Positions 17,981-37,994 of a stretch of DNA of 43,761 nt are shown piece after piece. Source of the DNA: Clostridium sp. (GTDB lineage: Bacteria; Bacillota; Clostridia; Lachnospirales; Lachnospiraceae); assembly GCA_023664385.1 (NCBI GenBank), contig JAMPFU010000026.1, forward strand, positions 1 through 43,761, given 5' to 3'. The first letter of the stretch is position 1. Every line of letters begins with the position of its first letter. Both the position numbers and the translations under genes were made by a program. The notes below the pieces were generated by a model, which saw nothing but the letters and a program-made list of their open reading frames with translations, was not told where the DNA came from and did no database searches.

Positions 17981-19622
17981 AATACATCACATCTCCCTTC
18001 AAGTAAGGATGTAATGTATCACGGTTATTCTGCAGGATTTCTAACAGAGTTTTATCGCCTGAAAATACACCCAAAATATCATGTTCCTTGCCGTTAACTA
18101 CTACCGTTTCCTGTAATGACTTACTTATACAGTTAGCATTGTATTGAGTCCGCAAACCAGCCATAACCATAATATACCTCAAAACTGCAGAATAAAAATT
18201 ATCATCAGAACGTACAAACCACCGTAACCGTTGAAAGCCAGAGCTAAAGGAGTCCTGCCGTTTGAACAGCGTCTGATATTCCTCGGAGTCCTGCAAAATC
18301 AACACCTGTATAAATGCCAATACAGTCTGAATATCCAATCTGTCTATTATACTGGTATCTTTTTCATGCTTCTTAAAATGCCGGTATAACATACTTTTCA
18401 AAATGGGGCAGGTTACTCTTGACTCCTCATTAAAAATAAGTTCTTTCTTCGTGGCTAAATCAGCATAAATTCCTATATGGTTATTTCGAATAGTCGCCTT
18501 ATTAGTGCCTTTCTTAGTGAAGAAAATACACAGCACCCTACTGTGCTGACCGACACTGTAGACTTCTAAACAGCATTGATTTGGCTGATAGTTCTTAACC
18601 CACTTCGTAAATTCATTTTCGTATTCATTGAAAAAATCAATCGGGAAGTGGAACATAACTCCCTCATCACAGTTAATCTGAACTTCATCGTATTTGGAAC
18701 TTACTCTATTGTGCACATAATCATTATCCACCGAGTAAATTACTAAAGGACGCAGGCTCTGTAACCATCTATAGATAAAATCACCGTACATATTACCATG
18801 CCGTACCGCAGCAGAGACAGACGTTTCATCAAACTCTTCAAAGTAAATACTCCGAATGACCTCAAACACATAATCAGCCGAAAGAAAATCACAACGTTTC
18901 CCCCCAACTACAATACACTCAGTCAATGCCCTGTCTTTGCTAACAGCATCATTAACATTCTCCAAGTATGTCAGTATCTTTGCGAGCCGCTTAAATGTTC
19001 CATCGCCATAGTCCTCGTGCAAGTATGAAATTGTAAAGCCTGCACGGTAAAATTGTTTCAAGGCAGCAAGATGCGCCTCCAGCACATTACTATGCTCAAG
19101 CATGGCGTCTAATGGTATAACTGAATTAGCCCGTATTTCATATCTCAGCATAACCTCGAGAGTGCTTGAGCATTCTGGGACGTTATTAGTCCTAAAGCAA
19201 CCTTTAAAGGCTCGGAGAGACTCGTACGTATACCCCTTGCCAACAAAAGGCTCATATTCAGCTATGGCACTTGCTCTGTCTTTACCCTCATTAAGCAGGC
19301 ATGCTACATTGTACACATCAAGACATCTAACAGCCTTGTCCGTACCATCCCGCTCAGTAATAATAAATAAAATCTCGCGGACAGTAAAGAAACCATCTTC
19401 AGTCAGCAACTCCTTCAGTAGCTTCATTTCTGCCCTCATATTCAATGTCTGCTCATCCAATAAGTATACGAGCTTATCAACGCTAATAATACTATCCTTT
19501 ATTTCAAGAATATCCTCCATCAATGAAGAAAATTCATAATCTATATTAAACGTACCACGCTGTTTCAAAAACTCAGAAAGTTTCTCTGTTTTGTCTCCAG
19601 CAATAAGCATAATATTAATCAT
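17973..19622 (-). CDS. Large soluble protein, possibly a receiver-like N-terminus, unknown function
   Basis: I do not recognise a family for this 549-aa protein. The first 105 residues (MINIMLIAGDKTEKLSEFL, then FFTVREILFIITERD) look like an alternating alpha/beta fold, perhaps like the atypical receiver domains of TadZ-type or conjugation-linked proteins. No Walker A is present, so it is not an ATPase as it stands. The remainder is mixed alpha/beta with no membrane helix. Its ATG overlaps the stop of the upstream 326-aa gene by 4 bases, so translation is coupled and a physical partnership is likely. AAGGAG lies eight bases before the ATG. Confidence 0.68.
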   Translation of the reverse strand: MINIMLIAGDKTEKLSEFLKQRGTFNIDYEFSSLMEDILEIKDSIISVDKLVYLLDEQTLNMRAEMKLLKELLTEDGFFTVREILFIITERDGTDKAVRCLDVYNVACLLNEGKDRASAIAEYEPFVGKGYTYESLRAFKGCFRTNNVPECSSTLEVMLRYEIRANSVIPLDAMLEHSNVLEAHLAALKQFYRAGFTISYLHEDYGDGTFKRLAKILTYLENVNDAVSKDRALTECIVVGGKRCDFLSADYVFEVIRSIYFEEFDETSVSAAVRHGNMYGDFIYRWLQSLRPLVIYSVDNDYVHNRVSSKYDEVQINCDEGVMFHFPIDFFNEYENEFTKWVKNYQPNQCCLEVYSVGQHSRVLCIFFTKKGTNKATIRNNHIGIYADLATKKELIFNEESRVTCPILKSMLYRHFKKHEKDTSIIDRLDIQTVLAFIQVLILQDSEEYQTLFKRQDSFSSGFQRLRWFVRSDDNFYSAVLRYIMVMAGLRTQYNANCISKSLQETVVVNGKEHDILGVFSGDKTLLEILQNNRDTLHPYLKGDVMYFE

Positions 19623-20599
19623 AACTTACGCTCCTTTGTTCTAAATCTATCTGTTACGGTGTCATCATTAACCCTATAAGTTTTACCATCGGTTGACCTA
19701 AGGCTGTACAACTGCATAACATGTGTGTAACTCTTGTCCAAATCTGTGGACAAATCAATGGCTTTCATCATTGCTAAATCAATTGCTTCGATATTATAAA
19801 AATCCCTGTAAAACTCTAGTAACTCATCAATACCTAAAATAGCTATCTCTCTAAAGCACGTGACATTTTCTGATAAAATTTTCATAATCTCGTTTAAAAT
19901 ACTATTAAGCATTTCAACATCACCAGGCATTTTAGAAGTTATAGTTAAGTACAACACATCCGTATTGCTTTGCTGCTTTGATATCTTCAAAGCAGTGTCA
20001 GAAAGAAGCCTTAAATTAAATGACAGTTCTTTGTCGGCTATACTATTAATCTGCTGTAAATGCTTCTTGTATTCTTTTGAATTTTCAAACGAGCCTGTCA
20101 TTGTATCAGTGCGAAAAATAAAATTATAATTACTTATAACCCCATAAATAAGCTCCAAAACCCTTCTCGTGTTCGCTGCTATAACGTCATCATTACTTCC
20201 GAACTTAAACCTGATGGTTGCCATAACGCACCCATTCGTGTATTCAAACATTTTTGCAGAGACTCCCTGTACTTCCGTATTTCTTATATTATCCTTTCTC
20301 ACATATAAAAACCTCGCAAAAGAATCTCCCTGCTGATCCTGATATTCCTGTATTTTCTCGTCTTCCCTAAAAATAAAAACACGAAAAATAACAATACCAA
20401 CAGCAATAAATAAAATCAGCTGCGTCACTAAAGCCCATAAAACACTGAGCCCTAAAAATCTTGTGAATAACAATCTGAGCGCAAAGAAAAGAACAATATT
20501 TGCAATAAAAAACAGTTGAATGACTATAGCTGTTTTATCCTGGGCAAGAAGCTTTTTAGCATTAGCAGCTCTTTTGTGCACATTATCAGGAAAAATCAT
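19619..20599 (-). CDS. Two-helix membrane protein with VirB4 N-terminal-like soluble domain
   Basis: The 326-aa protein has two adjacent hydrophobic helices (about 25-45 and 52-75), then about 250 cytoplasmic residues. The layout recalls the small VirB3/PrgI-type membrane proteins. The soluble part (LYLTITSKMPGD, then NEIMKILSENVTCFREI and DELLEFYRDFYN) recalls the N-terminal domain of VirB4/TrbE, which precedes the ATPase motor. No Walker motifs are present, so any motor must be a separate protein. The similarity is by pattern only and could be chance. The start has AGGAGGG seven bases upstream and follows a hairpin. Confidence 0.65.
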   Translation of the reverse strand: MIFPDNVHKRAANAKKLLAQDKTAIVIQLFFIANIVLFFALRLLFTRFLGLSVLWALVTQLILFIAVGIVIFRVFIFREDEKIQEYQDQQGDSFARFLYVRKDNIRNTEVQGVSAKMFEYTNGCVMATIRFKFGSNDDVIAANTRRVLELIYGVISNYNFIFRTDTMTGSFENSKEYKKHLQQINSIADKELSFNLRLLSDTALKISKQQSNTDVLYLTITSKMPGDVEMLNSILNEIMKILSENVTCFREIAILGIDELLEFYRDFYNIEAIDLAMMKAIDLSTDLDKSYTHVMQLYSLRSTDGKTYRVNDDTVTDRFRTKERKL

Positions 20600-20648: not shown

Positions 20649-23600
20649 TTACTGAAAATTCCGGTCACTGTAAATGCTATCTACTGAAGCATCTATGCTG
20701 TAACGAGAATCTTTACTACTATTGTGCCTGTAAGGCACTGCATTATTTTGTTTTTGATGTGTGAGATTGACAGTGTTAAACTTCAGGTTGTTAAACAAAT
20801 CCCCAAATCTGAACTTGTCACCTAAATTGGTTATCTTTGCTGATATCTCCCTATCACCAAAATCCAATACATTCATGAATACTGCAAATACGGTCTGTAG
20901 TACTACGTACAGCGAAACTGACGCCACCAGTACAGCCAATACGATGGACCAGACAGAGCCATCCATACTAGCGAATAGCCAAAAGCTCAGGTTAAAAATC
21001 GTGTATACCATAAACAGAGAACCTGATACCTTCAAATACCCTTTTATTGGTGTTTTCAGATTACCTAGCGAAATAAACCGTATAAACAGTATCACACCAA
21101 ACAGTAAGTATAGTACAGGGACCATAATCTTTATAACATTTGTTATTAAGAACATCAGAATAACCAGCACATCGAAAACTATAAGAACAAACCAGCTATG
21201 CTTATCTGCAACGTATTCCGCCATATTTCGTTCATTCACTACGTATTTACTGTAGTTGTCAACAAACACAGCATTCAATAAATCACCGAGTTCTATCTCA
21301 GCGTAATCTATGCTAAACGGGTACAACCAATGCTTGAATTGGCTTACACGTTGGTTGAAAGCTGTCAAAGCTCTCAAAGAAATAATTTTTATCATCGTTT
21401 CGTCAGAGATAGTACCGATTAAATCCTCCATATCGAAAACAAAATCTTTAGTCTGCGTGTTCACATAGTAAATCAAATCATTTATCTTGTCTTCGTTAGG
21501 AACCCAGTTTTCGTCATAGTAACCGTTATCCTGCATAGTCAAAGCCCAAAGAGTTCCTTTATCCTCCTCAGACAAATCAGTAAATACTGGTGCAATTCCA
21601 AGCCAGTCCGTGTTATCCCCAAATACTGCTGTCAGTACGGCTTTAAGTTCGTCAGACTCAGCAAGAAACGCCTGGTAATCCTCCATATATTCCTCAGCAT
21701 CTTCAGGCTCTGTGACACCGTAATTGCCCGGCGTCAGGAAAACAGGACTGTTGACATATGAATATACCAAGTAATTATCAGGGTTTTCGCCCTCTACCCA
21801 AGTGATGGTGCTTCTAGGTAACTCGTATACTTGAGCCAGCAAATTCAACTTGTTAATAAAATTATCCACAAAGTAATAATATGGCGTGTAGTAATCCATA
21901 TTATTACTCACAGACTTCATAGCTGATAACTGCCAGCTGTACCCGCCATTCACTGTGACGTATCTTCCTGTTATAGGCAATGTGTTAAACAGTATATCAA
22001 CATTAACTTTTAAGCTGTCACCCTCCACAAACAAACCGGACTCCTGATTTATCACACTCGTCTTTCCGGCTGTTACATCTTTGGCTTCAATATTTAAATT
22101 ATCATAAAAATCTGAAAGTTCGTTCACACTGACTTTGTACAGAGTTAAACTTGCCGTGTTGTACTTGTAATTACCATTAGAGTCAATATTAATGCTAAGA
22201 TTTTTAGAAGCCCTTTCCTCATCCGTTGTTAAAGCCAGTACCTTATACGCTGTTATTGTACTTGTTTTATCCAGTAAGAAATTATACACCATTGGCAAGT
22301 ATACTGGCAAAATCCACACGAAAACTGCTAAGATACCTAATACAACACCCGACGTAACTAACAACTCCATAAAATCCCTATGGTATTTCATAAACGCTAC
22401 CAGCAGCACTAGAAATACCAGTACAGCAAGCATTGCGAAATTCTCACGCAATATTCTCAAAACTCTGCCAAGTATAGGGTCTTCAAAACTGGAGTCCATT
22501 CCAATAGTCCCAGATGTAGTCGCTACACTCTCTACCATATCATTACTAAAGTTTACAAGTTGTTCCTTTAGCTGCTCACCTTTTGTCGAAACAAATTGTT
22601 TGTACTCCAATGCTTTGTCATTTGTGTACGCTATAGGGTTTTTATTTCCGAAACTGCCTGAAATTATAAACACATGAGTCAAGTAATTATCATTGAGGTT
22701 TAATACATTATCGTATGTGTAATCAGTCCGACTGTAGCTGAAATACTCATACATATTTCTGGCAATAACCCCCGCTATGATAAAATCCGTGTCTTCACTG
22801 GAATTATACGGAAAAATCAACATCTCATTTACTATTGGATTAGACGTCTTCTGTACAACATTATAACTATAAATGCCGGACTGCGTCCAAGATGCGAAAG
22901 ACCTAAAGATACTTCTACGTCCCGACAGTATTTTATTGGAATCCGTTGTGTTAGTGTAAAATACCGGTTCCAATGGCATACTAGAAAGCAGTTTGGTATC
23001 CTCAATATTATTACTATCCACAACCAAACTGCATTTAATAGTAGCATCCCTGACGTCTTCGTTCACATTCTCTGACAGAAAAACATATTTACCAATATCA
23101 CTTTCAGAAGCAACCCTGAAGTATGAGCCTCGGTTCATAACATTAGGGTATGCATTCATAAAAGCAACCGTGTATGGATTGTAGCTAACCCCGCTTCGGT
23201 AAATAATAGGGTTAGAACTACCCGGAAGTACAACTAAATTGTCATCCGTTACGATATCTCCAAATACATTCACATATAAATATCGTGAATCTTTATTTTT
23301 AATGGCACTTAAATTAGCCGTGTTAGCTATAACATTCTTCATTATAGCCGTTGTCATATTATCCCTGTCCCTGGAATATCCAATACCATAAAACATTACA
23401 GGCTGCGTCAGATAATTCACATCCGTTATAGTATCGTATGCATAAATAGCTGAGTCTAAATCATCGGCTACCAACTCTGTATCCTGCTTATCATTTTTTG
23501 AATCTTCCGTATTGTCATCTGTACTCTCTGTAGTAACAGGACTGAGTCCCTCCGCTGTCTGACTACCGGACTGTTGATTTGTATCTACTATTTTAGGTAA

Positions 23601-25595
23601 CAGTTCTCGCAGTATCTTTAAGTATGTATTGCTGGTGTAATGAATACCATCCGTACTTGCATATCCTGACTGTAGACCGGAAGCATCACTGTTCAGCATA
23701 TCCTTCGTTGTATCAACGAACTGTATATCCTGACTCAGCCCTGCCTCCATGGTAGAATTAAAACTTACTATAAGACTATTAGATGCAGATGAACCTGTAT
23801 CAGCTGCTTTTTGGTCGTCGACTGCTCCAACAGATTGAACTACAACGTTGCTACTGGACCACTCATCTGTAGCAAGACGGTTTAATTCTTCGTAGTATTC
23901 CTTGCTATGTCCTAAATCGTTGACACCCAGATTAATTACTATGGTAAATTTTACGCCAGGGTTCGCCTGTAAAATAGAATTTATTGTGATTTCTGCTGTG
24001 TTCTTTAGCCATGCGTAACCGGCACCGTCCTTATCCACAAAGTATACATTATTACTATTCAGCTCAGCAATCGAAACTCCCTGTGTAATTACAGCACTCT
24101 GCAAGCCATTACACCGGGAGTCCCCGACAAAAATAATATTCTCCAAAGTTTTAATCATAGTCTTATTATCTGACAAATCCACCTCATTGTACACAGGCAA
24201 CTCACTTGCATTAACCGTTACGCTGTCCCCTAAATCTAACCTGGTGCTGTTATCGGGCTCGCTCGCAGGTGTTTTAGTATCTGATTTATTATCATCAGTT
24301 TCCTGTTCTTTGAATTGTGTACCTATACTGTAATCATATGTCAGTTCATTCTGTGAATAAATCCAAGCTTGCACTTCCGAATTATAATGAAAATCCCCCT
24401 GCACTGTGACTAATGCCCCGTTACTTCCATTCTCTATATCCTCTATAAATTCCTCAATTGTGATAAGCTTTGCTGGTCCGGTTGTGGCACCATTGCTATC
24501 AATTTCACGTTTGTACAGTGGTTTCCTATAATCTTTCACGGAATTGTAAGCTTTTACCAATGCATTACCCTGTGTATCGTTATCTGCCAGGCTCATAAGT
24601 GCATTTGTAAACTCAGGTGAACCCACATAACTTTTGAACGGCGTGTAAACTGAACTGGTAGCCAGCATAGCCAAGTATGTCTGACTAAGTTCCACCTCAC
24701 TAGGAAACACATATTCCCCATTCCCATCCAGCTCAATATTAGTAAACATCTCAATAGGCGTTTCATCCGTATTTACATCCAAGCTCTCATCTGATGTTTT
24801 TTGACTTACTTTTCTTCCGTATTGCAGTAATTCTTCATGAGCCTCTACTATAGCTGTTATCTTTTGCTTAAGCGAATTGTTATTTCCAGAACCATCCACA
24901 GAGTATGTCGGGTGTGTTGAAGACCCCACCTGAATTGGTGTTATATTTGTAAGAGTTATTGGAACATCCTGAAAAACAATAATACATTTGTATAACTGCT
25001 CCAATACCTGAGAATGCTCCCGCAGATATTGTGCTTTATCTTCATCACCACTTGGCTTGTCGTTATCTAAAGACGCCAGCACACTACTGTAGTAACTGGG
25101 AATGGTGTTACTCAGAGCTTGCGTACAGTAACTCATCAAATTATTATATCTTGAGTCTAACGTAGCATTTTCATCTCCAAAAGCTAATGTCAGACTTTTG
25201 TATTTATCTTCGGTGGAAGAACTAGTAACCCCATTGTAATCGGATTTACCATCGTATTTGCCATTAAAAAGATCCACATATGCAACAATCCTCTGTCCAT
25301 AATACACTACTTCTTTATCTGAAAAGCCTAAATCTTCAGCGTACCTGCTTATCACCTGCCAATACATCATATACTCTGACAAGTTTCTTAAATCATACAG
25401 CAGCCCTATTTGATTGGAAAGTTTGTTATTAAGATTTCCCTCTATTGTACTCAAGCGAGAAACAATTGCTAACTTGTATTGTTGTAGAGTTTGTTGATTT
25501 TCATTGGTAGCTGCTGACACATTAAAGCTTGAGCTAAGGTTTAAACACAGTGCTAATGCTAGTACAAGTGAAACTGCAACTTTTTTAATTTTCAA
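20649..25595 (-). CDS. Giant polytopic membrane protein with an exported SGNH-hydrolase domain
   Basis: The 1648-aa protein starts with a signal peptide ending near VSAA (28-29). A helical region (30-300) follows. Residues about 485-670 form an SGNH/GDSL hydrolase with all four blocks: GDSR (S493), GVND (N559), and STDGIHY (D649, H652). SGNH enzymes cut or move acyl esters, for example O-acetyl groups on peptidoglycan. After an unrecognised beta-rich stretch there are membrane helices near 1042-1110. A large external-looking loop and at least four further helices (1467-1575) precede a polar tail of 70 residues. The start is TTG at 25595, nine bases after GAGGGGG. I expect it to sit at the centre of the transfer apparatus, with the hydrolase on the outside. 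Confidence 0.85.
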   Translation of the reverse strand: MKIKKVAVSLVLALALCLNLSSSFNVSAATNENQQTLQQYKLAIVSRLSTIEGNLNNKLSNQIGLLYDLRNLSEYMMYWQVISRYAEDLGFSDKEVVYYGQRIVAYVDLFNGKYDGKSDYNGVTSSSTEDKYKSLTLAFGDENATLDSRYNNLMSYCTQALSNTIPSYYSSVLASLDNDKPSGDEDKAQYLREHSQVLEQLYKCIIVFQDVPITLTNITPIQVGSSTHPTYSVDGSGNNNSLKQKITAIVEAHEELLQYGRKVSQKTSDESLDVNTDETPIEMFTNIELDGNGEYVFPSEVELSQTYLAMLATSSVYTPFKSYVGSPEFTNALMSLADNDTQGNALVKAYNSVKDYRKPLYKREIDSNGATTGPAKLITIEEFIEDIENGSNGALVTVQGDFHYNSEVQAWIYSQNELTYDYSIGTQFKEQETDDNKSDTKTPASEPDNSTRLDLGDSVTVNASELPVYNEVDLSDNKTMIKTLENIIFVGDSRCNGLQSAVITQGVSIAELNSNNVYFVDKDGAGYAWLKNTAEITINSILQANPGVKFTIVINLGVNDLGHSKEYYEELNRLATDEWSSSNVVVQSVGAVDDQKAADTGSSASNSLIVSFNSTMEAGLSQDIQFVDTTKDMLNSDASGLQSGYASTDGIHYTSNTYLKILRELLPKIVDTNQQSGSQTAEGLSPVTTESTDDNTEDSKNDKQDTELVADDLDSAIYAYDTITDVNYLTQPVMFYGIGYSRDRDNMTTAIMKNVIANTANLSAIKNKDSRYLYVNVFGDIVTDDNLVVLPGSSNPIIYRSGVSYNPYTVAFMNAYPNVMNRGSYFRVASESDIGKYVFLSENVNEDVRDATIKCSLVVDSNNIEDTKLLSSMPLEPVFYTNTTDSNKILSGRRSIFRSFASWTQSGIYSYNVVQKTSNPIVNEMLIFPYNSSEDTDFIIAGVIARNMYEYFSYSRTDYTYDNVLNLNDNYLTHVFIISGSFGNKNPIAYTNDKALEYKQFVSTKGEQLKEQLVNFSNDMVESVATTSGTIGMDSSFEDPILGRVLRILRENFAMLAVLVFLVLLVAFMKYHRDFMELLVTSGVVLGILAVFVWILPVYLPMVYNFLLDKTSTITAYKVLALTTDEERASKNLSINIDSNGNYKYNTASLTLYKVSVNELSDFYDNLNIEAKDVTAGKTSVINQESGLFVEGDSLKVNVDILFNTLPITGRYVTVNGGYSWQLSAMKSVSNNMDYYTPYYYFVDNFINKLNLLAQVYELPRSTITWVEGENPDNYLVYSYVNSPVFLTPGNYGVTEPEDAEEYMEDYQAFLAESDELKAVLTAVFGDNTDWLGIAPVFTDLSEEDKGTLWALTMQDNGYYDENWVPNEDKINDLIYYVNTQTKDFVFDMEDLIGTISDETMIKIISLRALTAFNQRVSQFKHWLYPFSIDYAEIELGDLLNAVFVDNYSKYVVNERNMAEYVADKHSWFVLIVFDVLVILMFLITNVIKIMVPVLYLLFGVILFIRFISLGNLKTPIKGYLKVSGSLFMVYTIFNLSFWLFASMDGSVWSIVLAVLVASVSLYVVLQTVFAVFMNVLDFGDREISAKITNLGDKFRFGDLFNNLKFNTVNLTHQKQNNAVPYRHNSSKDSRYSIDASVDSIYSDRNFQ

Positions 25596-25691
25596 AGTAT
25601 AATGCCCCCTCTCATTAAAACTTTAGAATTACTATTAGCATTATTAATAAAAGAGTTATTGATTTTACTCACACAACTCCTGTCCATCCCA

Positions 25692-25750
25692 TTAAAATTA
25701 AAAAGAGACAGAGTGTTCTTTGTTTACACTCTGTCTCTTTTTAATTTTAA
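25692..25750. terminator. Bidirectional terminator: perfect 25-bp stem
   Basis: Positions 25692-25716 and 25726-25750 are perfect inverted repeats closing a 9-base loop (TCTTTGTTT). The stem core is AGAGACAGAGTGT, with A-rich and T-rich flanks in both directions, so it can stop transcription from either side. It lies just after the PD-(D/E)XK gene and ahead of the giant SGNH gene. It could therefore separate that gene's expression from its upstream neighbours. Confidence 0.8.
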
Positions 25751-25767
25751 ATATTATCATATTCCCT

Positions 25768-26748
25768 CTATTCTGAAAAGAACTGCATATCTTTTGAATT
25801 ATCGTCACTGTTATGGGCTACACTACTGATAATATCTTTTACTTTCTCAATAGGCATCTTTACAATCTTAGCTATACGCTCTACTGAATCTCCATCTTCA
25901 TACATACTTATAACTATTTCTTTTGCTTTTTTTTCCTCGCCTTTTTCATAAATCGCTTCTGATAAATTACACATAACACTCACACCCTTCTTTATATTGC
26001 CTTCTGTCTCTATTTTGTATTCCGTTTTAATAATATCAAGTTTACCCTTTACCGAGAGATTATCCGATAGCAGAGCCCCTAAAAGGCGATGCAGCTTATA
26101 CCCCTTACTAACATCAGGAAGTTCTTTTGCTACTCCAATTAACACAATATTAATCAAATCAAGATTACCTTCCCAGTCACACGAACCTAAAACAGCGTCT
26201 TTTGTAAGATGAACATAAGCCATACTGTTTTCGTCTGCATTCAAACAGACCCAAATACTAAATACTCTTTTAATATCATCATAATTAGTATTTACAAAAT
26301 CTCTTTCTTTCTGTGAAGAAATTAGACGACTTGCATAAAAAATTGCCCTGTTTAGTAAATTGTATGCGTATGGTATCTCTTTTTGAATTTCCACATTAAT
26401 AATAACCTGAGACAATCCGTCCTTCATCCACACGTAAAAAATAATATCAAACCTGACTAATCCTTCATTAATCTCGCTATTTTCAGTATTTAATCCTACA
26501 ATACGTTGCCCTTTTGGGTAAGTGACACTATTAGTCAGTCCAGGCTCTACGGGAACCCGTCCTATTTGCGGTTCACCTTCAATAAGCTTCACTACATCCG
26601 GTATCTCCATACCATAAAATTCTTCTATTGTATTTATTAAAATATGTGCCAGTATTTCCTTATTACCTATCAGCCGTTTTGCCTGTTCATCATATTGGGC
26701 ATTTATATCTGCCGCATTAATTGCATTTTTTATCTCTGTACTCATCAT
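25768..26748 (-). CDS. PD-(D/E)XK nuclease family transposase-like protein (Rpn type)
   Basis: The 326-aa protein has the usual plan of the Rpn/PDDEXK_2 group: an N-terminal helical region, then RFDIIFYVW (Asp) and IINVEIQKE (the E-x-Q/K pair) as nuclease core. A 'NLLNRAIFYASRLI' helix follows, and the charged C-terminal helical tail (EKGEEKKAKE, IAKIVKMPIEKVKDI) resembles the repeat tails of these proteins. Family members are thought to promote recombination. It has its own promoter and a strong terminator on its far side. That marks it as an insertion inside an otherwise continuous operon. No clear terminal inverted repeats or target duplication are visible. Confidence 0.85.
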   Translation of the reverse strand: MMSTEIKNAINAADINAQYDEQAKRLIGNKEILAHILINTIEEFYGMEIPDVVKLIEGEPQIGRVPVEPGLTNSVTYPKGQRIVGLNTENSEINEGLVRFDIIFYVWMKDGLSQVIINVEIQKEIPYAYNLLNRAIFYASRLISSQKERDFVNTNYDDIKRVFSIWVCLNADENSMAYVHLTKDAVLGSCDWEGNLDLINIVLIGVAKELPDVSKGYKLHRLLGALLSDNLSVKGKLDIIKTEYKIETEGNIKKGVSVMCNLSEAIYEKGEEKKAKEIVISMYEDGDSVERIAKIVKMPIEKVKDIISSVAHNSDDNSKDMQFFSE

Positions 26749-26792
26749 TCACACCTTTTATCGCTCGTTAAAATTCTTATGAATTTATTACC

Positions 26793-26821
26793 ATTGTAAC
26801 CTAAATTCCATGATTAATCAA
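26793..26821 (-). promoter_or_regulatory. Promoter of the PD-(D/E)XK gene
   Basis: The minus strand has TTGATT, a 17-base spacer and TACAAT, followed by a leader of about 45 bases and an AAAGGTGT ribosome site before the ATG. It is one of the best promoter matches in the element region. Confidence 0.6.
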
Positions 26822-26850
26822 CTTAAATTCATAGTTTCGCCAACCACGCT

Positions 26851-27048
26851 TCAAAAAGTACCCATAGCTTCTACCTGGTCTTGTACCCGTCTGATGCAGT
26901 ATTCCTTCATAAACTTAATAATTTTATCGTCGTATCCTGTTTCATAAAACTTAAGTAACATTCCTTCAAATTTATTATACAAAGCATAAATCAGATGCAC
27001 AATACTATTTTTTGCTGAATTTAAACCCATTAATTGTAATACTGCCAT
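26851..27048 (-). CDS. Doubtful short reading frame overlapping the 109-aa gene
   Basis: A 65-aa frame overlaps the end of the small membrane protein gene by 44 bases in another frame. No ribosome site precedes its ATG. Still, its sequence (KFYETGYDDKIIKFMKEYC and following) is protein-like, helical and basic. It might be the remnant of a gene disrupted by the PD-(D/E)XK insertion, or a frameshift extension of the upstream gene through the six A at its stop. I keep it at low confidence. Confidence 0.3.
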   Translation of the reverse strand: MAVLQLMGLNSAKNSIVHLIYALYNKFEGMLLKFYETGYDDKIIKFMKEYCIRRVQDQVEAMGTF

Positions 27049-27334
27049 TTTTCTTATCGTAAATACCCCGCATATCCTCCTCAGAGCACTCCAACACTAT
27101 CTCATTACCTTCCTTGCGGTATTTCCCTGAAAGTGTGTTACGGCTATCACTATTACCCATAGTCAGCGTAAACTCCTTCATATCGAGCTTCAGACTAAAC
27201 TCAATTCCGAGTTCCTCGTAACTGTCGCATGAGTAAACACCACAGTATTCATACCTAACTAACACCACTGCTATGCTTAACCAAAGCACAACCACCAAAC
27301 TTATCACTATTGCGTATTTTATTCCCTTTTTCAC
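27005..27334 (-). CDS. Small membrane-anchored protein with exported beta domain
   Basis: The start is set at GTG 27334 (MKKGIKY), eight bases after GGAG; the frame is also open to a TTG at 27355. The product has about 109 residues. One signal-anchor helix (about 8-30, VISLVVVLWLSIAVVLV) is followed by an exported domain with short strands: EFTLTMGN, SGKYRKEGNEIVLECS and GSITINGFKF. It looks like a small lipocalin- or META-like beta unit, but I recognise no family. It lies after the hairpin that follows the 370-aa gene. Confidence 0.6.
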   Translation of the reverse strand: MKKGIKYAIVISLVVVLWLSIAVVLVRYEYCGVYSCDSYEELGIEFSLKLDMKEFTLTMGNSDSRNTLSGKYRKEGNEIVLECSEEDMRGIYDKKNGSITINGFKFSKK

Positions 27335-27357
27335 ACTGCTCACTCCATTCTTCAATA

Positions 27358-27385
27358 AAGTGTATGGTTGTTATGCCATACACTT
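27358..27385 (-). terminator. Hairpin after the polytopic protein gene (copy A of a duplicated element)
   Basis: Minus-strand stem AAGTGTATGG/CCATACACTT with an 8-base loop is followed by TATTGAAG. It matches the hairpin at 37995-38018 at 29 of 36 aligned bases, with one compensated base-pair change. It lies 5 bases past the stop of the gene at 27391. Confidence 0.6.
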
Positions 27386-27390
27386 CGACT

Positions 27391-28503
27391 TTAGTAACCG
27401 GTCGGTGCTTTTTGGTTACCGTTTTTGTTATTACTGCCACTGCCATCATTGACACCGTCGGTAGCCTCATTATCATCTACCTCAAAGTAATTGGTTTCAT
27501 CTGCATTAGACTTCTTGGTTATAAAGACGTGCATATAATACTTACCTGCAGAGTCACCAGTAATTCCAAAACTATCCATCGGAATACCACTACCACCTAA
27601 CTCAGAATTAATAGTCCCTCCACTGTAAAACTGTGTGGCATTTACGACTGTAGATACCTGCAGATTTTTACAGTCTCTGTCGGAGCCATCAAATCCCGGA
27701 ACTTCAGCACTGCCTACATACCCCTCACTAATAGAGACATTGTTATTAACGTACTGCTCAATCATCTGCCCGATATATAGCTTTGCATTAGTTGACAAAT
27801 CATTGGTTTTAGCCAGTATTTTACTATACATATCCTCCGCCAGATTCTGTCTGAACTTTCCAAATTCAGAGCCATCAGCATCGTAAGCAAACTTGTAAGC
27901 TGAACCGGAATTCATCCATTTACGCACAGTCCCCGTCAAATCAGTTGATACAATTTCATCGGCTGCAGTAGCCATAGCATCTACTAATACACCGTATGCT
28001 TTGAACAACGTGCCGTTAAACCCTATAGAATAGAAGAACACTATCATTATAGTCGGCAGCGCTTTCTTCAGCATATAAGTAGTCACCGTGTCATCATCAG
28101 ACAACCTGTAGCTCCTACGCTCTGGACCGTAATCTGAATACATTTTAACATCAGGCAGTAAAGTAAGAAGGAAAGAGAAAATAGCATCCAAGCCAGTCCC
28201 ATTATTAGCAGTCGCAATATTATCCTTAAACAGGTTTGGTAGTCCTAAAAACTTTCCTCCATTCCCGGCATTCTTTAAATCATGTATCCTGTCGAACATC
28301 GAACGGGAGCTTAAGTACAACAACGTAACTACCAACTGGTACATTGTCATTACAAGCCCTATAAGACAAAATGCCGAAATAACAAACTGGAATAGTGCAC
28401 CAAGCCAATTGAATTTACTGAACACTTCCCATGAACCAGAAAAAGCACTGGTGTAAAATAAATCAGTTAACGGTTTTTCATAAAGAATTAAATTTGTACC
28501 CAT
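27391..28503 (-). CDS. Polytopic membrane protein of the transfer-like operon
   Basis: I do not recognise a family. The start at 28503 is fixed by AAGGAGG six bases upstream; an earlier ATG at 28560 lacks a site. The product has about 370 residues. Two or three membrane helices lie at about 30-60 (FQFVISAFCLIGLVMTMYQL), and another at about 150-175 (TIMIVFFYSIGFNGTLF). The last 150 residues are polar and Asn/Gly-rich, ending in a low-complexity tail (DGVNDGSGSNNKNGN). It is flanked by the two giant proteins' genes and could be a channel subunit linking them. Confidence 0.68.
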   Translation of the reverse strand: MGTNLILYEKPLTDLFYTSAFSGSWEVFSKFNWLGALFQFVISAFCLIGLVMTMYQLVVTLLYLSSRSMFDRIHDLKNAGNGGKFLGLPNLFKDNIATANNGTGLDAIFSFLLTLLPDVKMYSDYGPERRSYRLSDDDTVTTYMLKKALPTIMIVFFYSIGFNGTLFKAYGVLVDAMATAADEIVSTDLTGTVRKWMNSGSAYKFAYDADGSEFGKFRQNLAEDMYSKILAKTNDLSTNAKLYIGQMIEQYVNNNVSISEGYVGSAEVPGFDGSDRDCKNLQVSTVVNATQFYSGGTINSELGGSGIPMDSFGITGDSAGKYYMHVFITKKSNADETNYFEVDDNEATDGVNDGSGSNNKNGNQKAPTGY

Positions 28504-28577
28504 AGTAACCTCCTTTCTATTGGTAACTCTAAAGCATTTATAACGATTGGAGTAACCCAATTATTACTGTATTAATT

Positions 28578-31500
28578 TTAAGGTCGCCACATTACAATAG
28601 CGTAACTTATAAAGAAACTGATAAAGCTTGTGACAAATGTTCTTGCTAGAGTTGGTTCCGAGTCAATATTGTAAATACCGAAAGTCAATATCTTAATTAG
28701 ATCAAAACCATGCCGCATCATACTGTTCTGCTTAGACGGCAAAGTAATTGTTTCAAACAACTTTCTACCATAACCTTCCGTAAGAATCGCCCACATTATC
28801 CACGATACAATAGCCAAGTAAACTGCGAAGTAGAAAGCAAACATCCAAAGCACCGTTATTACATCACCTTTAAAAGCATCCCTCATCATCTGTTTGTATT
28901 TAGTCTTTGTAGCTTTAAACCACTCAGATGGGAAAAATCTTGAACTCGTAACAGCAACAGTTGCAGCAGACCCTTCTTCGTAGACTAAAGACTCCCGAAA
29001 AAACGGTATTTCATCCACGTATGTATTCGGCGTGACAGAGCTTGTCAGTAAAGCTACGTATCTGTTAAGCTTTTTAGTTGTTGGTCTGACATATAGCCCA
29101 TCATCTAACTGTATTGTGATACACACCGATGTTGGTGTCATAGTCGAAGCATCCTGTGCCTGATTGGTTCCATCCAAGTATACAACAGGAGCACCACCTT
29201 TCTTACCATTACCGCTATACAAAACACCGGATTTACCATCAGGATTATACAGAGAACCTACGTATGCATTATTTATAAAACTGCTCAGGTAAAATTGCTG
29301 ACCCCCACAGACCACTGGTATTCCAACAAACAAATGACTTTTAACGGCTGTTAATTTATCTTCATCGGTAGCAGAACTATTTAAAACGGAAATAAGGTCT
29401 GTATCGCTGATGGGTTCTGAAACAAAAAGAGGAGCCCCTTTGTTAGAAGAAGCAACACGCACAAAATTAATATCAGCTATTGTTATTACTTGTTTTTCGA
29501 CTAAATTGTTAATAGGTACCGTGTTCGTGTTTGCATAAATTATACTATCCCTTACAGCCTGAGAGATGCCATTCGTGTAAATACCATTTACATTCAATGC
29601 ATTTACGAGAGCCCCTGAATTCAAATAGTATTCCCCTTGTGACTCATAAAAGTAGTAATCGCTCACTTTAAGAAAGAATACTGGAATAGCTTGTATGCTC
29701 TTTCCACGTAATTTTTCAAACTTTTTTGTTGTAAAAGATTCTTTAGTCTCTCTGCCATCAGTGAGAGTTTTGTTATTCACATACCAGCACTTTCCGTAGA
29801 CATCCCTAAACTTTGTTGCTACTGTAGTAGGCTGTGCTTCATACAAAAATGAACTGTCAGTAACCTGTATTTTATTAGTCGTTCCCACAGTGCTGGTCGC
29901 AAGCATCGGCATACCAAAAAAATCAGCGTATAACTCATTCAGCTTAGTGATACAATCGTTCAAAACAGCACTGTTTGGTTTAGTACTGCTGAGGTTAGAA
30001 ACTGGGAGAATACCCAGTTTGTCATCCACAACAACGCCGCTGATTGTAAATCTCGAATCCTCGAACAAGGGCTGCACACAATAGTATGCTTCGTGATTAA
30101 TTCTGCGGGAGCCAGTCAAAATCCATTTTTGTCCATTATAATTAAACTCCTTCCCAATTGGAGTTTCTGAGCTGCCTTTTACTCGTCTAGTCTGTATATT
30201 CAGCTGTCCGTCCTTGTACAGTACACTATCGTTGGTTTGTACATTCTCATAAATAACACCAGCTCTTGTGACAAAAAAACTGTCTGAGTAAGTCTTACCG
30301 TCAGCCATATTCTTTCCATTAAGCAGTTTATACCCCCGGGTACCTGCTGCTAATGCTTTGGTGTATGTGTCGCTCAATGTACTCCCACTGTAAAACACTT
30401 CCCACCATTTAGTTGTACTACCGCAGTACTTTAATCCAGTTTCATCAAGCTTAAAGCCGTTTTGCGTAAATATCTGCGAAATAGTACCATCTGTAACACC
30501 TTCAGGACGCAATATTGTAATACTTGGAGCCAGGTATCCTGACTTCACGTATTCCACACCGGAAGTTCCGTACATAAAATTAGCAAGTGAATTGGAAACA
30601 CTAAGATTAGAGTCCCACCACTCTTGTAAAATAGCACTGCCGGTAGGGCGTGTGTAAATAACACTATTCACATCCTGTAAAGTGAGGCTATCCGTGCCTT
30701 CTTCAATACTGCTAACATAATTCGCAATATCCTCATTTGCGAGTATTTCGTTATCAGGTATCACGTAATTCCAATCCACGATTACATAAACCTGTTCATC
30801 CGCCGTACCGTTTTTAACAGTGAAAGCCCTAGTCAATCTGTTAGTTCCTACTTCCATGTTATCAACATTAAAGCACCCTGCATCTTCACTTATCCTCTCA
30901 TCGTTGCTAAATCCCGACTCTCCCAAATCAATATCGACTACATATGCATCACGTAATCTAGTCCCATAGTATCCGTATACAGGAACTTTCTTTTCATTTT
31001 GGACAGCACTGCAAACGTACATAACATTGTTTCTTGCCAAACGAGACAGGTATACATTGCCAAGCAGACAGCTTATTATCTCCAAATTGTAGTATACATT
31101 GCCTGAAGTGTCCAAGTATTGCAGCAATCCATCAGCTTTGTATACAGAATATATCTCCACATCATTATCCGACAATGTTAATTCTATTGCATTGTCTAGC
31201 AAGTTTGATGTATTATCAGCATTAAGTGTGTACCCTGCAAACTCAAAGCTTGTATTACCGCTGTACTCAAGCAGCTCATAATCCTTTTCAGTTTCATTAT
31301 TATAAAATGAAACTACATCCTCAGCCATAACGCCATCACAGTCATGGTAGGCAACAGACATGTCTTTCCTGTAAATTGCATATAATGTAATATCCCCTGT
31401 GACATCCTCTATGGCAGTCAAATCATCATCAACAGTAAAACCAGCTGTTGCATCTTTGTCAGTGTTCCAGCCGACAAATTCATATCCTGCTTTTGATGCC

Positions 31501-34500
31501 GTCGGCGTTATATCAACTTTCTCTCCTTTTCTGACTGCAACTTTTTCCTGTTCTCCATCCCAAGAAGTGCCCCCGTTGTACTCCCAATCATACGTAACGT
31601 AAATGCCTTCGGCTAAAGAGATGGTTGCAGTAGGCTTTGCCCCGGTTACTGTCTGGTATACTGCTTCTGCTATCCACCCATCCTTAATTACCTCCACTTC
31701 AAGCTTTTTACACTTTTCCCGATAAAAGGTCATTACACCTTCATCAAATTCTTCAGTTCTGCTCATGCTGACTATAACAGGCTTTCCCTCGTAGTATCCT
31801 GCATCCTCTCCTACAAAGAACATTGCAGGGAAGTTAGGGTTTCCTATAGGTATACTGTTATAACCTATTTCTAAGTATGAGTCTGCGTCCGTGTATGACT
31901 CATCTTTACTAAAACTGAATACGTCGCCTACCTGAGTTGACAGTCTGCCCTCAACATGCACATTTCTTTCATTGCCCTCAAATACCATAGGTGCGTAGAC
32001 ATTCACCGTACTGCCTTCATCACACTTTACACCGGTGCCGTTATCTTTTGCGAGAAACCCTCCCTGACAATTTAAAGTGGAAGACCCCTTTGTGCAAAAA
32101 CCTGTTTCATTATCATGGCAGCTTAAACTCATCAAATACAAACTTCTACTTCCGTCAAGTACAAAGCCTTCGTCACAGCCATATATTTCAAGATTGTACA
32201 GCCCGTCTGGCAGCATATTGACAGACACCTGTCCACTTGTGTATAACCCTGTATCACAATCATAGATTATATTCGTTGTTTCCCTACTAGAAGTTATCGG
32301 ATAAACAAAGAAACCACTTGAGCTTGTATTATTTACACCTATTGTACAGTTGTAAATCTCATTAGAATCTTTGTATTGTACTTGCCCGCTGCCCCTGCTT
32401 ATTCCGTTATCGGACCAATATCCTACTTGTACACCTGTTTCGCAATCATGTATACTTGTATAAAATATATTAGTTGTGCCGTCGACCGAAACACCGTATC
32501 TGAAATTTGAAATTTCAGATTTCTCATCTAAATTAATATATTCATCCACTATACCTTTTAGCCCGCCTATATCGCTTATATTGCTCCCGGCAGGGTATCC
32601 ACTCTTAAAGGCTATACCTAGCAACAGCTCAGAATAATTGGCAGACGTTCCATAACTAACCTGTCCACATATACCGGCAACAGCATCATCTCCAATACCC
32701 TCTATTAAAGTATTATAAACTGAAAAACTGGCAGTTCCCCTTACTCCATATTGTTTCGCCGTAACATGGCATCCTACTAATGCACTGACATACATTTCTG
32801 CACCAATATCTGCATTTATTATATCCGTATTTACCCAGCACATATGTCCGCTGGAAGAACCGACACAGTTAGATACACCCACATGAAAACCGTTAAAGCT
32901 GTTATTGTAGCCTGCTCCACCACCGTTGGAGACAGCTACGCCGTATGAGTAATCATTCTTATCTTCTTTTGCTGTGAAATGTGAGTTGCACACAAAAGCC
33001 ATTCCCTGTGCCCTTGAACCCTCGCCCGAATTAATGCCGCTATTTACATTTGTTGCTGTCACATTATCTACGTATACCGTAAATGCGTGATGCATATTAA
33101 TAGCATTATAACAGTTTGTAATTATAGTGTCCTTTACTACATACCCGTAGTTATCTTCATTTGTATTGCCGTTTCCAAAGGCACTACCTCTACTGCCGCC
33201 ACTTGTATCTATTCCGTAGCAGTTTGCGTCTGAGCTATTTTTACCTGTAATTTCACAATTTTCTATTCTGCTGAGTCCGTCTCCACCGCCTGTGTTAGTC
33301 TTAACGGCAGTCATATTATTTTCAAAAGTACAGCCCGATACCAAATGATTTCCATATCCTGTTTTTATAGCCGCATCAAAATCCTTAAAAATGGCATCGT
33401 GTACTTCAACAGGGAAATAACTTCCATCATAAACTGTTGTGCCAATAGTATACTCAAATCCGACGCTGCTTCCATTGCCAGCGTAGTTCCCACCATTTAC
33501 ACGCAGGTTATCTCCCGCTCTGCCTTCCACATAGTATACCTTGCCGCATCCCTCAGAAGTACAGTTATTAAACTCAATAGTGCTCTGACCTGCGCTGCTG
33601 ACCATAGCAGACATATCATTTCTCATACCGTGCTCCAGCCCGCTAAATGAGCAGCTGTTCAGAGTAATATCCGTGCCCTGCTCTATCAGTATTCCGGTTC
33701 CTGTTCCGCTGAATGAGGTATTGTTAATGGTTATGCCGTTTCCCTGTTGTTTAATATTCATTCCCGTATCAGCTATATCGGCAAAAGTACAGTTGTCCAT
33801 AGTGACAACCCCGGCATTACTTTCAATAGTAACAAGACCATTAAAAGACACATTATTGAATACCGCCGTCGTACCGTTATCTATCGTGATACTGCCTATC
33901 TGACAGTCATTGTAGGTAATGCTACTCACATCTGTAGTCACATCAAACACATGACTGTTACCATTTATCACAACACCTGCATCCGAACCAGCTATTTGTG
34001 TAAAACTACTGTTGGTATCACACTCCATATTAATTACCAACGGTTCATTTCCTATGTATATGTCTCCTGAAAACAACTCACTATTTGCCTTCATATTAAT
34101 CCAGTCGATTAAAGAAGTTATTATAATCCCAGTGACTGTTTCTCCAGCATCGGCGTTACCTTCAGAAACTAATTGAACATCATCATACAGAACTATATCT
34201 ACCATATCTTCTGTTGCTGCTTCAGTAATTTCTTCTGTTGCAGTCACATCAGTATTCTCCTCTGTAACCTCTGTTACTTCAGAGTTTTCCTCTGCAACTT
34301 CTGTTGCAGCACTCTCCTCAGTAACCTCTGCTGTGGTAACTTCGGTACTCTCCTCAGTTATCTCTGTTACTTCTGAGTTTTCCTCTGTTACCTCTGCTGC
34401 TTCCAAAATTTCTTCAACAACATATTCCTCATCTCCCAACTCGCTACCTGCCCCGTAACTGATGGGTGTGGTTGAAGTAATAGCTACCGCTGTAGCTAAT

Positions 34501-34523
34501 AACCACATTAATGTTTTTCTCAT
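28578..34523 (-). CDS. Giant beta-helix surface protein with C-terminal membrane anchor
   Basis: The 1981-aa protein has a signal peptide (1-25, ending YGAG). A Thr/Glu/Val-rich repeat region (43-106) follows, then a long right-handed beta-helix (about 165-900). In the helix, short turns such as 'ITINNTSFSGTGTGILIEQG' and 'INGNSHVFDV' recur with the Asn/Gly/Cys spacing of parallel beta-helices. Next come one or two Listeria-Bacteroides-type repeats (about 970-1130: YEFVGWNTDKD, ITLYAIYRKD). A long, unrecognised beta-rich region follows (1130-1880). The last 100 residues hold two membrane helices (about 1885-1910 and 1955-1978) rather than a sorting motif. It is probably an adhesin or contact protein held directly in the membrane, perhaps joined to the channel by its helices. 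Confidence 0.85.
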   Translation of the reverse strand: MRKTLMWLLATAVAITSTTPISYGAGSELGDEEYVVEEILEAAEVTEENSEVTEITEESTEVTTAEVTEESAATEVAEENSEVTEVTEENTDVTATEEITEAATEDMVDIVLYDDVQLVSEGNADAGETVTGIIITSLIDWINMKANSELFSGDIYIGNEPLVINMECDTNSSFTQIAGSDAGVVINGNSHVFDVTTDVSSITYNDCQIGSITIDNGTTAVFNNVSFNGLVTIESNAGVVTMDNCTFADIADTGMNIKQQGNGITINNTSFSGTGTGILIEQGTDITLNSCSFSGLEHGMRNDMSAMVSSAGQSTIEFNNCTSEGCGKVYYVEGRAGDNLRVNGGNYAGNGSSVGFEYTIGTTVYDGSYFPVEVHDAIFKDFDAAIKTGYGNHLVSGCTFENNMTAVKTNTGGGDGLSRIENCEITGKNSSDANCYGIDTSGGSRGSAFGNGNTNEDNYGYVVKDTIITNCYNAINMHHAFTVYVDNVTATNVNSGINSGEGSRAQGMAFVCNSHFTAKEDKNDYSYGVAVSNGGGAGYNNSFNGFHVGVSNCVGSSSGHMCWVNTDIINADIGAEMYVSALVGCHVTAKQYGVRGTASFSVYNTLIEGIGDDAVAGICGQVSYGTSANYSELLLGIAFKSGYPAGSNISDIGGLKGIVDEYINLDEKSEISNFRYGVSVDGTTNIFYTSIHDCETGVQVGYWSDNGISRGSGQVQYKDSNEIYNCTIGVNNTSSSGFFVYPITSSRETTNIIYDCDTGLYTSGQVSVNMLPDGLYNLEIYGCDEGFVLDGSRSLYLMSLSCHDNETGFCTKGSSTLNCQGGFLAKDNGTGVKCDEGSTVNVYAPMVFEGNERNVHVEGRLSTQVGDVFSFSKDESYTDADSYLEIGYNSIPIGNPNFPAMFFVGEDAGYYEGKPVIVSMSRTEEFDEGVMTFYREKCKKLEVEVIKDGWIAEAVYQTVTGAKPTATISLAEGIYVTYDWEYNGGTSWDGEQEKVAVRKGEKVDITPTASKAGYEFVGWNTDKDATAGFTVDDDLTAIEDVTGDITLYAIYRKDMSVAYHDCDGVMAEDVVSFYNNETEKDYELLEYSGNTSFEFAGYTLNADNTSNLLDNAIELTLSDNDVEIYSVYKADGLLQYLDTSGNVYYNLEIISCLLGNVYLSRLARNNVMYVCSAVQNEKKVPVYGYYGTRLRDAYVVDIDLGESGFSNDERISEDAGCFNVDNMEVGTNRLTRAFTVKNGTADEQVYVIVDWNYVIPDNEILANEDIANYVSSIEEGTDSLTLQDVNSVIYTRPTGSAILQEWWDSNLSVSNSLANFMYGTSGVEYVKSGYLAPSITILRPEGVTDGTISQIFTQNGFKLDETGLKYCGSTTKWWEVFYSGSTLSDTYTKALAAGTRGYKLLNGKNMADGKTYSDSFFVTRAGVIYENVQTNDSVLYKDGQLNIQTRRVKGSSETPIGKEFNYNGQKWILTGSRRINHEAYYCVQPLFEDSRFTISGVVVDDKLGILPVSNLSSTKPNSAVLNDCITKLNELYADFFGMPMLATSTVGTTNKIQVTDSSFLYEAQPTTVATKFRDVYGKCWYVNNKTLTDGRETKESFTTKKFEKLRGKSIQAIPVFFLKVSDYYFYESQGEYYLNSGALVNALNVNGIYTNGISQAVRDSIIYANTNTVPINNLVEKQVITIADINFVRVASSNKGAPLFVSEPISDTDLISVLNSSATDEDKLTAVKSHLFVGIPVVCGGQQFYLSSFINNAYVGSLYNPDGKSGVLYSGNGKKGGAPVVYLDGTNQAQDASTMTPTSVCITIQLDDGLYVRPTTKKLNRYVALLTSSVTPNTYVDEIPFFRESLVYEEGSAATVAVTSSRFFPSEWFKATKTKYKQMMRDAFKGDVITVLWMFAFYFAVYLAIVSWIMWAILTEGYGRKLFETITLPSKQNSMMRHGFDLIKILTFGIYNIDSEPTLARTFVTSFISFFISYAIVMWRP
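34205..34397 (-). repeat. Tandem Val-Thr-Glu-Glu repeats in the beta-helix protein
   Basis: The protein stretch 43-106 is built from degenerate units like VTEENSEVTE and VTEESAATEV. It is an extended acidic spacer after the signal peptide. The DNA also repeats (CCTCTGTTACTTC and variants), so slippage could change its length. Confidence 0.8.
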
Positions 34524-34606: not shown

Positions 34607-35368
34607 TTATTCTGCAAAGAAGTATTGCAGTTTCTGCCTGAATTCTGTCTGATTATCTGTAAACAGCTTAACTAAATCTTTGCTGTCTCCGCTTTGTGCA
34701 AGCCTCAGGCTCTGGACATATCTCATCCTTTGTTCATCTTCTATAATGATTGGACACATACCATTTAGTAAACTTTCCCTAAAAAGTATAAGCCTGCCTA
34801 CCCTGCCATTACCATCCTGAAATGGATGTATTTTTTCAAAACGAGCGTGAAACTCTGCTAAAACTTTAACTGACTTCTCTTGATTGTCGTACCATACAAG
34901 CAATTCTTTCATATCATTCGCAACGTCTTTTGGCAATGATGTTGTAATATCCCCAACTATATTAGGCTTTTTCTTATAATCCCCGATAGCATACCCATTT
35001 ATACGGTCTTCGAATACCCCAGCTTTCAAACAATAATGCAGAGCCTTAACCAGCTCCTCAGACAAGGTTTCATCCATTGTTTTTATTAAGTGATTGAATG
35101 CTAAAAAATGACCCTGTGCTTCTTCTACATCTTTTACTCTGTAGACAGTCTTATCAGGTGTCAAAGTCTTTGTATCAAACAAGCATACTGTTTGGTCTTT
35201 TGTCAGAGTGCTTCCCTCTAAATGATTTGAATTGTACGCTAAGCTCACTTGAAGAAAACCGTACACTCCATTCTTGTATTGTGCCTGAAATTCATCTATC
35301 AATGCAGCCTTTATATCACTGCACAACTGTCTGTCAGATCCAAACAAATTCATATCATTCATTATCAT
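34607..35368 (-). CDS. Fic-family AMP-transferase with N-terminal inhibitory motif
   Basis: The 253-aa protein has the full catalytic motif HPFQDGNGRVGR (H181 to R192). His181 and the GNGR loop are the residues that move AMP from ATP to a target hydroxyl. Near the N-terminus SNHLEG (S47 to E51) fits the self-inhibitory [S/T]xxxE[G/N] helix that blocks the ATP site in class II Fic proteins. It may therefore act without a separate antitoxin, or be switched on by a signal. The start may be at 35368 or at the ATG at 35362, which has a better-spaced AGAGG. It is the last gene of the toxin cassette, starting just after the upstream HEPN gene. The target is unknown. Confidence 0.9.
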   Translation of the reverse strand: MIMNDMNLFGSDRQLCSDIKAALIDEFQAQYKNGVYGFLQVSLAYNSNHLEGSTLTKDQTVCLFDTKTLTPDKTVYRVKDVEEAQGHFLAFNHLIKTMDETLSEELVKALHYCLKAGVFEDRINGYAIGDYKKKPNIVGDITTSLPKDVANDMKELLVWYDNQEKSVKVLAEFHARFEKIHPFQDGNGRVGRLILFRESLLNGMCPIIIEDEQRMRYVQSLRLAQSGDSKDLVKLFTDNQTEFRQKLQYFFAE

Positions 35369-35376
35369 ACCTCTTA

Positions 35377-35799
35377 TTATTCCTCCGGAAACCTTTCCAT
35401 TTTACTTAGAGGCAATTGCTGTATGCTATTATCCGCAAAAGCAATAATATCATCTGCAATACTAATAGCCTTATCTAAATCTTCTATAGAAGCTGTAAAA
35501 GACTCCGAATACCATGCTTCCATTTTCCAGTTATTTAACGTATTGGCTAAATTGTGTAATTCACTTACCCTTGGAATATTCACAGGCGACTCTAGTAGTT
35601 TATTTAATTGTACATATGCATCATAATCCTCAGTATGCACGCCACCATAAATTTCTATCAAAAATTTTAATGCCTGCTCTATAGCCTGCTGAACGTTAAA
35701 ACAGCAACTGTCTAAGTAAGCATCATCTGTGCTTATCAGCTTGTAATTATCTGCCACGATTTTACGATTTACTTTCGCCCTATTCAGTAGCTTGCTCAT
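35377..35799 (-). CDS. HEPN-domain protein
   Basis: The product starts at ATG 35799, with GAGG six bases upstream; the ATG at 35817 lies inside the previous gene. Its 140 residues form a helical HEPN domain. The visible core is CFNVQQAIEQALKFLIEIYG, whose 'QQAxExALKxLI' helix is typical of the COG2250 group, with later WYSESF. HEPN domains often act as RNases in toxin and defence systems, but the RX4-6H nuclease motif is not clear here. It lies between the AbiEi-like gene and Fic, so it may belong to either partner. Confidence 0.75.
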   Translation of the reverse strand: MSKLLNRAKVNRKIVADNYKLISTDDAYLDSCCFNVQQAIEQALKFLIEIYGGVHTEDYDAYVQLNKLLESPVNIPRVSELHNLANTLNNWKMEAWYSESFTASIEDLDKAISIADDIIAFADNSIQQLPLSKMERFPEE

Positions 35800-35800
35800 A

Positions 35801-36235: not shown

Positions 36236-36237
36236 AT

Positions 36238-37924: not shown

Positions 37925-37994
37925 ACTGCCACCCCTCACTGCCATTTTATCACACCCTTCCCTAAAAAGGTAGTGTAAATTCTCCTTGAATAAA

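Follow-up and report, generated by a model that had tools for sequence, protein, structure and literature searches.

The 43,761-bp stretch of DNA analysed here (the window) makes up contig C18 in full, within a genome of 80 contigs whose completeness is given as 100%, and it carries the genes of two giant proteins with that of a membrane protein between them. This block is probably the envelope part of a type IV secretion system (T4SS)-like transfer apparatus belonging to apparently undescribed integrative elements of approximately 150 kb, and the copy in the window has most likely undergone reduction or decay, leaving it immobile or dependent on a helper. Relatives of the element are found in G235, a Lachnospiraceae metagenome-assembled genome, and in G495, a genome of another family than that of the window; a third fragment, G669:C35, holds giant 2, a clamp loader and a T2SSE ATPase together. 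The gene order, the homology, the membrane segments and the lack, in the window, of a motor gene at the site where the relatives have one are direct observations.

The frames of 1648, 389, 1981 and 1842 amino acids (aa) all lie uninterrupted on the minus strand, which bears out the arrangement seen in the first-pass annotation of this DNA: two giants flanking a membrane protein, and a third giant past a toxin cassette. Giant 1 (1648 aa, 20649..25595) has a signal-like N-terminus and six membrane helices in its C-terminal half, and hydropathy (Kyte-Doolittle, threshold 1.6) places the signal-like helix at the N-terminus, a pair at residues 1053-1096 and four at 1470-1577, a topology that would leave large extracellular parts. 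Giant 2 (1981 aa, 28578..34523) consists of a beta-helix and Flg_new region followed by a conserved C-terminal half of about 850 aa with two C-terminal membrane helices. Of the signal peptides and C-terminal helices attributed to the giants, giant 1 shows a signal-like helix and the C-terminal helices, while in giant 2 the helices stand and the N-terminus, signal-peptide-like by eye, falls under the helix threshold. All three blocks of the SGNH/GDSL hydrolases (GDS, GxND, DxxH) occur in giant 1, as GDSR 491, GVND 557 and DGIH 649, within a domain of approximately residues 470-690 that is seen in the window copy only, but its GDSL match is under the Pfam cut-off (E 0.0076, 17.2 vs 32.9 bits); the beta-helix match of giant 2 sits exactly at the cut-off (25.9 bits), and its Flg_new repeat is clear.

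The protein encoded between them (27391..28560, minus strand) has 389 aa when read from a TTG start and about 370 aa from an internal ATG. It is the best conserved of the block, with 47% identity to its relative in G235 and 36% to that in G495. The polytopic protein of 370 aa that had been described is therefore a real frame, although less polytopic than supposed, with one helix over the threshold, while both full-length relatives have three; it has no Pfam match, and its structure model (pLDDT 30) is unusable. It can also be observed that this protein lacks the N-terminal membrane helix of both full-length relatives and that it begins immediately next to where giant 2 ends (28520-28580).

Both G235 and G495 have homologues of the trio in the same order, with a VirB4-like ATPase nearby. 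The order in G235 is giant (1745), 402, giant (1472), 326, 449, 435, VirB4-like (659) and NlpC/P60 (702), and that in G495 is giant (1709), 411, giant (1494), 343, 422, VirB4-like (635) and 875. The window reads giant 2, 389, a 116-aa gene, a PDDEXK_2-like gene, giant 1, 326, 549 and two lipoproteins, which in G235 sit about 27 kb further on. Altogether nine element genes are common to the window and G235, and eight of these keep their order, a count that leaves out the flanking UvrD, a HEPN/nucleotidyltransferase pair that lies outside the G235 element, and weak SpaA-repeat and SGNH cross-matches. The first-pass annotation had raised the matter of whether these genes occur singly in unrelated loci, and in the loci of G235, G495 and G669 they never do. 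Judged from these comparisons of sequence, the giant/389/giant trio is a real conserved block and not a chance cluster.

The block is also rare. With the 326-aa protein as query, the only genome matched among 200 of the family was the window's own, as it was at E<=0.001 among 37 of the genus, where seven others matched at E 0.0098 or worse. The 1648-aa query had no match in the genome contig collection, and the 389-aa query found one locus there (L039). An alignment of the 389- and 402-aa proteins recovered, besides the own genome, G495 and G669 strongly and G632 weakly among 392 genomes of the order, and a three-row alignment recovered the own genome only among 386 genomes of the phylum.

What is conserved in the giants is the membrane core. 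Giant 1 and its G235 homologue have in common the N-terminal domain, the membrane helices and their surroundings, linking regions included, but not the SGNH segment: the homologue lacks this domain, and G495 gave no SGNH match. Giant 2 shares its last ~850 residues (query 1127-1977) with its G235 counterpart at 27% identity over 915 aligned positions, and in G235 a SpaA-like or other N-terminus takes the place of the beta-helix region. These results do not favour the proposal that the lytic and adhesin jobs are done by proteins built into the membrane complex, since neither the SGNH domain nor the beta-helix is conserved, an NlpC/P60 protein and a sortase are encoded separately in G235, and giants of both relatives end in LPxTG-like sequences. 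The NlpC/P60 protein of G235 (702 aa) has an 875-aa homologue in G495 (24% over 183 aa) that gives no Pfam match, and G495 has a relative of the sortase gene; no VirB1-like wall hydrolase was recognised in the window. G235 also encodes a separate 486-aa lipoprotein that joins an SGNH-like domain to a VgrG3-like C-terminal domain. This domain retains GDS and GVND, and its activity is uncertain because it has SGIH where the window has DGIH. The existence of a fusion in one lineage and of separate genes in another suggests that the SGNH enzyme may work with the giant, probably on wall polymers.

The third giant (1842 aa, 38027..43555, minus strand), previously called a pilin, is a SpaA-repeat surface protein (E 2.4e-101, 10 stretches) that ends in VPKLGD-helix-RRKG, a variant motif that may be an LPxTG-type sorting signal.

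The 659-aa protein of G235 and the 635-aa protein of G495 carry the Walker A motif GxTGSGKT and have weak matches to VirB4 proteins (E 5e-7 to 8e-4), and neither gave a Pfam or PDB match itself. A profile of the two (A5) matched 3 of 381 genomes of the class and the 659-aa query 3 of 397 genomes of the family; the six long matched frames were all read by eye as VirB4 ATPases, and the two that were scanned gave P-loop_TraG. Neither query nor profile had a VirB4-like match in the window genome, which gave no P-loop_TraG match either, against 7 of 14 control genomes that did, and thus no complete standard transfer module was found elsewhere in it. The sole Walker A among the 36 listed proteins of the window is that of the flanking UvrD, and the own-genome RpoC matches all fall within a single frame of 1327 aa, which is regarded as chromosomal. 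The VirB4-like, 435-aa and NlpC/P60 genes are not at their conserved position, and because this position lies inside the window the absence of the motor there is independent of where the contig breaks. Since the element showed no Walker A ATPase and the genome gave neither VirB4 nor an element RNA polymerase, the window copy is most likely reduced or decayed.

Two points bear on the interpretation given so far. The first concerns the right-hand end of the contig. The last 54 bp (43708..43761), upstream of the SpaA giant, are the end of a multicopy repeat, presumably insertion-sequence-like, that is common to the ends of C62, C75, C78, C3 and (over 50 bp) C11, with abrupt divergence beyond; because the contig ends at this repeat, where the assembly breaks, the assembly may lack part of the element. 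The element might even be complete in this strain, its motor, RNA polymerase and replication genes lying on contigs past the repeat or unassembled. This is in keeping with the five other contig ends that bear the repeat, with the uninterrupted giants, and with the fact that most of the large contigs are outside the 1.31 Mb of other own-genome contigs against which 126 G235 proteins were compared (distant matches only, 23-31% identity). It is nevertheless unlikely, as the whole-genome searches gave no VirB4-like match and RpoC in one frame at a stated completeness of 100%, and no contig break explains why the VirB4-435-NlpC block is missing at an internal site.

The second point is that neither a relaxase nor a VirD4 coupling protein was found in the Pfam scans of 26 of the 28 window element proteins and 48 of the 124 G235 open reading frames (ORFs); the best 25 of 234 families were listed in the NCBIfam scan. 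The lack of a relaxase there makes DNA transfer the weakest step of the proposal, and it suits the notion of a surface or protein-export apparatus, for example for effector release or contact-dependent competition, as do the very large surface proteins and the paired FtsK-type ATPase of the relatives. We consider such a machine improbable, given that the relatives carry an integrase or recombinase together with replication genes, as mobile elements do.

Returning to transfer as the preferred function, the 326-343 aa protein, the 402-411 aa membrane protein and the two giants would form a platform, close in the relatives to the VirB4-like ATPase. The extracellular parts of the giants would cross the thick wall, opened by a wall hydrolase such as the one seen in G235, while sortase-anchored SpaA-type giants would hold the partner cell and DNA would presumably be the cargo. 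The relatives would replicate, and probably transcribe, themselves, using a fused RpoB-RpoC and a DNA polymerase that they encode. The window copy, which keeps the platform and the surface proteins and shows no motor, would be inert or need a helper.

The 326-aa protein (19619..20599, minus strand) consists of two N-terminal helices and a soluble domain. In the structure model this domain aligns to residues 14-214 of 8rtd_T, 8rtb_A and 7o42_A over 129-138 residues, which is not significant alone; the entry 7o42_A is named TrwK/VirB4, and the other two, from T4SS complexes, are taken for VirB4 from length and range. The model gives a hint of VirB3-like helices followed by a domain resembling the N-terminal one of VirB4. 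The alignment to the N-terminal part of VirB4 recalls the TrwM/VirB3-TrwK/VirB4 complex of R388, unlike which the 326-aa protein lacks an ATPase domain and has the two helices on the same chain.

The T4SS of Gram-positive bacteria (MPF-FA/FATA; Tn916, pCW3, pCF10, pIP501) resemble the relatives in having a VirB4-like ATPase near a two-helix protein and membrane proteins, and also a wall hydrolase, to which the NlpC/P60 protein of G235 may correspond, a surface adhesin and an integrase or recombinase. They differ in that the giants measure 1472-1981 aa, compared with the 700-900 aa given for MPF-FA VirB6 in the review PMC12857230, in the separate VirB4-N-like protein, in the lack of a detected relaxase or VirD4, in the T2SSE-type ATPase of G235, G495 and G669, and in the window being without a motor. 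An integrative conjugative element of the ordinary sort whose surface genes have grown large would account for the integrase, the SpaA adhesin and the toxin/antitoxin cargo, and yet it is extremely unlikely in view of the genome without P-loop_TraG, the fused RNA polymerase of the relatives, and proteins with no Pfam match (389 aa) or none above the cut-off (326 and 549 aa). The T2SSE/VirB11-like ATPase occurs in all three relatives (L041:5161-6867, L157:100-1722, L162:16276-17958) and is unusual beside a Gram-positive T4SS-like block.

The large elements were delimited by gene content, no attachment repeats having been found. From the sequence read (G235:C1 105.5-310.3 kb and all 196 kb of G495:C1), they extend over about 143-289 kb in G235 (~145 kb) and about 6-164 kb in G495 (~156 kb), with 124 and 126 ORFs of at least 60 aa. 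There are 42 reciprocal best matches between the two, 40 inside both intervals and two outside both, and the 40 pairs follow a perfectly inverse order (Spearman -1.0; the contigs are oppositely oriented) at 22-40% identity. According to Pfam, the G235 element encodes DNA polymerase A (1341 aa, with a weaker 594-aa relative), a DHH exonuclease, a 5'-3' exonuclease, DNA ligase, DnaB-like and SNF2-like helicases, a CHC2 zinc ribbon, HSP70, a sigma factor, FtsK-type and T2SSE ATPases, NlpC/P60, a sortase and a TubZ-type tubulin (L044:10278-11393), and a large serine recombinase was also found. The G495 element gives the fused polymerase, HSP70 and T2SSE by Pfam; many other G235 genes are matched there by homology, and it too has a DNA replication set. 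At two loci (L155:15751-19458, L042:7462-10425) an FtsK-type ATPase is adjoined by ~100-aa proteins and a protein of 838-983 aa, an arrangement that recalls type VII secretion; Pfam gave no WXG match for the three small proteins that were scanned.

The fused RpoB-RpoC proteins have 2752 aa in G235 (G235:C1 261706-269964, L046/L051) and 2586 aa in G495 (L154:160-7920). Rpb2 and Rpb1 domains are found in one frame in G495 and in two halves of the single frame in G235, and both proteins have the catalytic NADFDGD. They align with each other over 2108 positions at 26% identity, and with 1099 residues of the own-genome RpoC in short stretches at 27-32%. Separately, twelve Clostridioides difficile 'plasmid' records (NZ_CP149721.1 and similar) hold rpoC-like sequence and are probably chromosomal pieces.

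Jumbo and crAss-like phages are known to have multisubunit or giant RNA polymerases, and the elements share with them a beta/beta' polymerase, a replication set and, in G235, a TubZ-type tubulin. The T4SS-like and surface genes set them apart, as does the lack of any structural phage gene among the families listed. Proviruses of an unusual phage, with the giants as part of a virion or entry structure, would fit the perfect gene order at low identity, the large and virus-like replication and transcription set and the many PHROG replication-type matches. They are very unlikely, since no head, tail or packaging family is among the best 25 of 51 PHROG families (96 G235 proteins), the VirB4-like ATPase matches helicase and terminase families weakly (terminase E 0.0065), seven scans of viral contigs gave one chance match, and exported SpaA-type giants with a sortase are not virion-like. 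To our knowledge, non-viral bacterial mobile elements do not carry their own multi-subunit RNA polymerase. We put forward, tentatively and as something that falls a little short of probable, a third kind of giant element beside phages and standard conjugative ones: integrated, ~150 kb long, with a T4SS-like giant-protein machine, its own fused RNA polymerase, sigma factor, DNA polymerase, tubulin and chaperone, and partly independent of host transcription, the window being a stripped descendant.

pXO16 of Bacillus thuringiensis is a large conjugative plasmid with a novel transfer system. It is likened to these elements by description only, as a large element with unusual transfer properties (PMC9673590). 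Neither the set of genes that the first-pass annotation had taken to be without a described counterpart nor elements of this kind were found described in the open-licence literature of PubMed Central (preprints outside scope), and because this coverage is partial the term undescribed is provisional. If the proposal is true, genes would have a new way of moving among Firmicutes-type bacteria, and partly host-independent transcription would have a natural example; giants whose outer domains can be exchanged (SGNH, beta-helix, SpaA-like) while the membrane core is conserved would be a way for a channel to span a thick wall.

As to the rest of the window, positions 1-8083 are chromosomal in character by eye (UvrD, PurC, PurE and others), and the element starts at a tyrosine integrase (8121..9248, minus strand; Phage_integrase E 8.5e-31), taken as its left border, and continues to the contig end. 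The GC content is near equal in flank (0.403) and element (0.394). All the genes that follow are on the minus strand. The toxin/antitoxin-type cassette between giants 2 and 3 (34607..37945) encodes Fic, HEPN, AbiEii nucleotidyltransferase, HEPN and Polbeta nucleotidyltransferase proteins, and one 155-aa protein without a match. The PDDEXK_2-like gene (25768..26748; E 4.9e-5, below the cut-off) lies between giant 1 and the 389-aa gene, a place it occupies in neither G235 nor G495. The first ~104 residues of the 549-aa protein (17973..19622) match a 449-aa protein of G235 encoded next to the homologue of the 326-aa protein; beyond them nothing convincing was found in G235, G495 or G669, and there is no Walker A. 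The two lipoproteins have G235 relatives at 31% over 403 aa (16790..17980; E 2e-52) and at 23% in the same order (15783..16793; E 1.4e-6). A NYN-domain protein (14991-15761), with no match among the G235 proteins, stands between them and an LRR_5 protein (14119..14979; E 4.2e-10), whose weak G235 relative (23%, E 1.2e-8) makes it the sole shared gene out of order. Finally, a metallo-beta-lactamase fold protein (11412..12335; Lactamase_B_2 E 6e-25) has 42% identity over 306 aa to G235 154666-155676.

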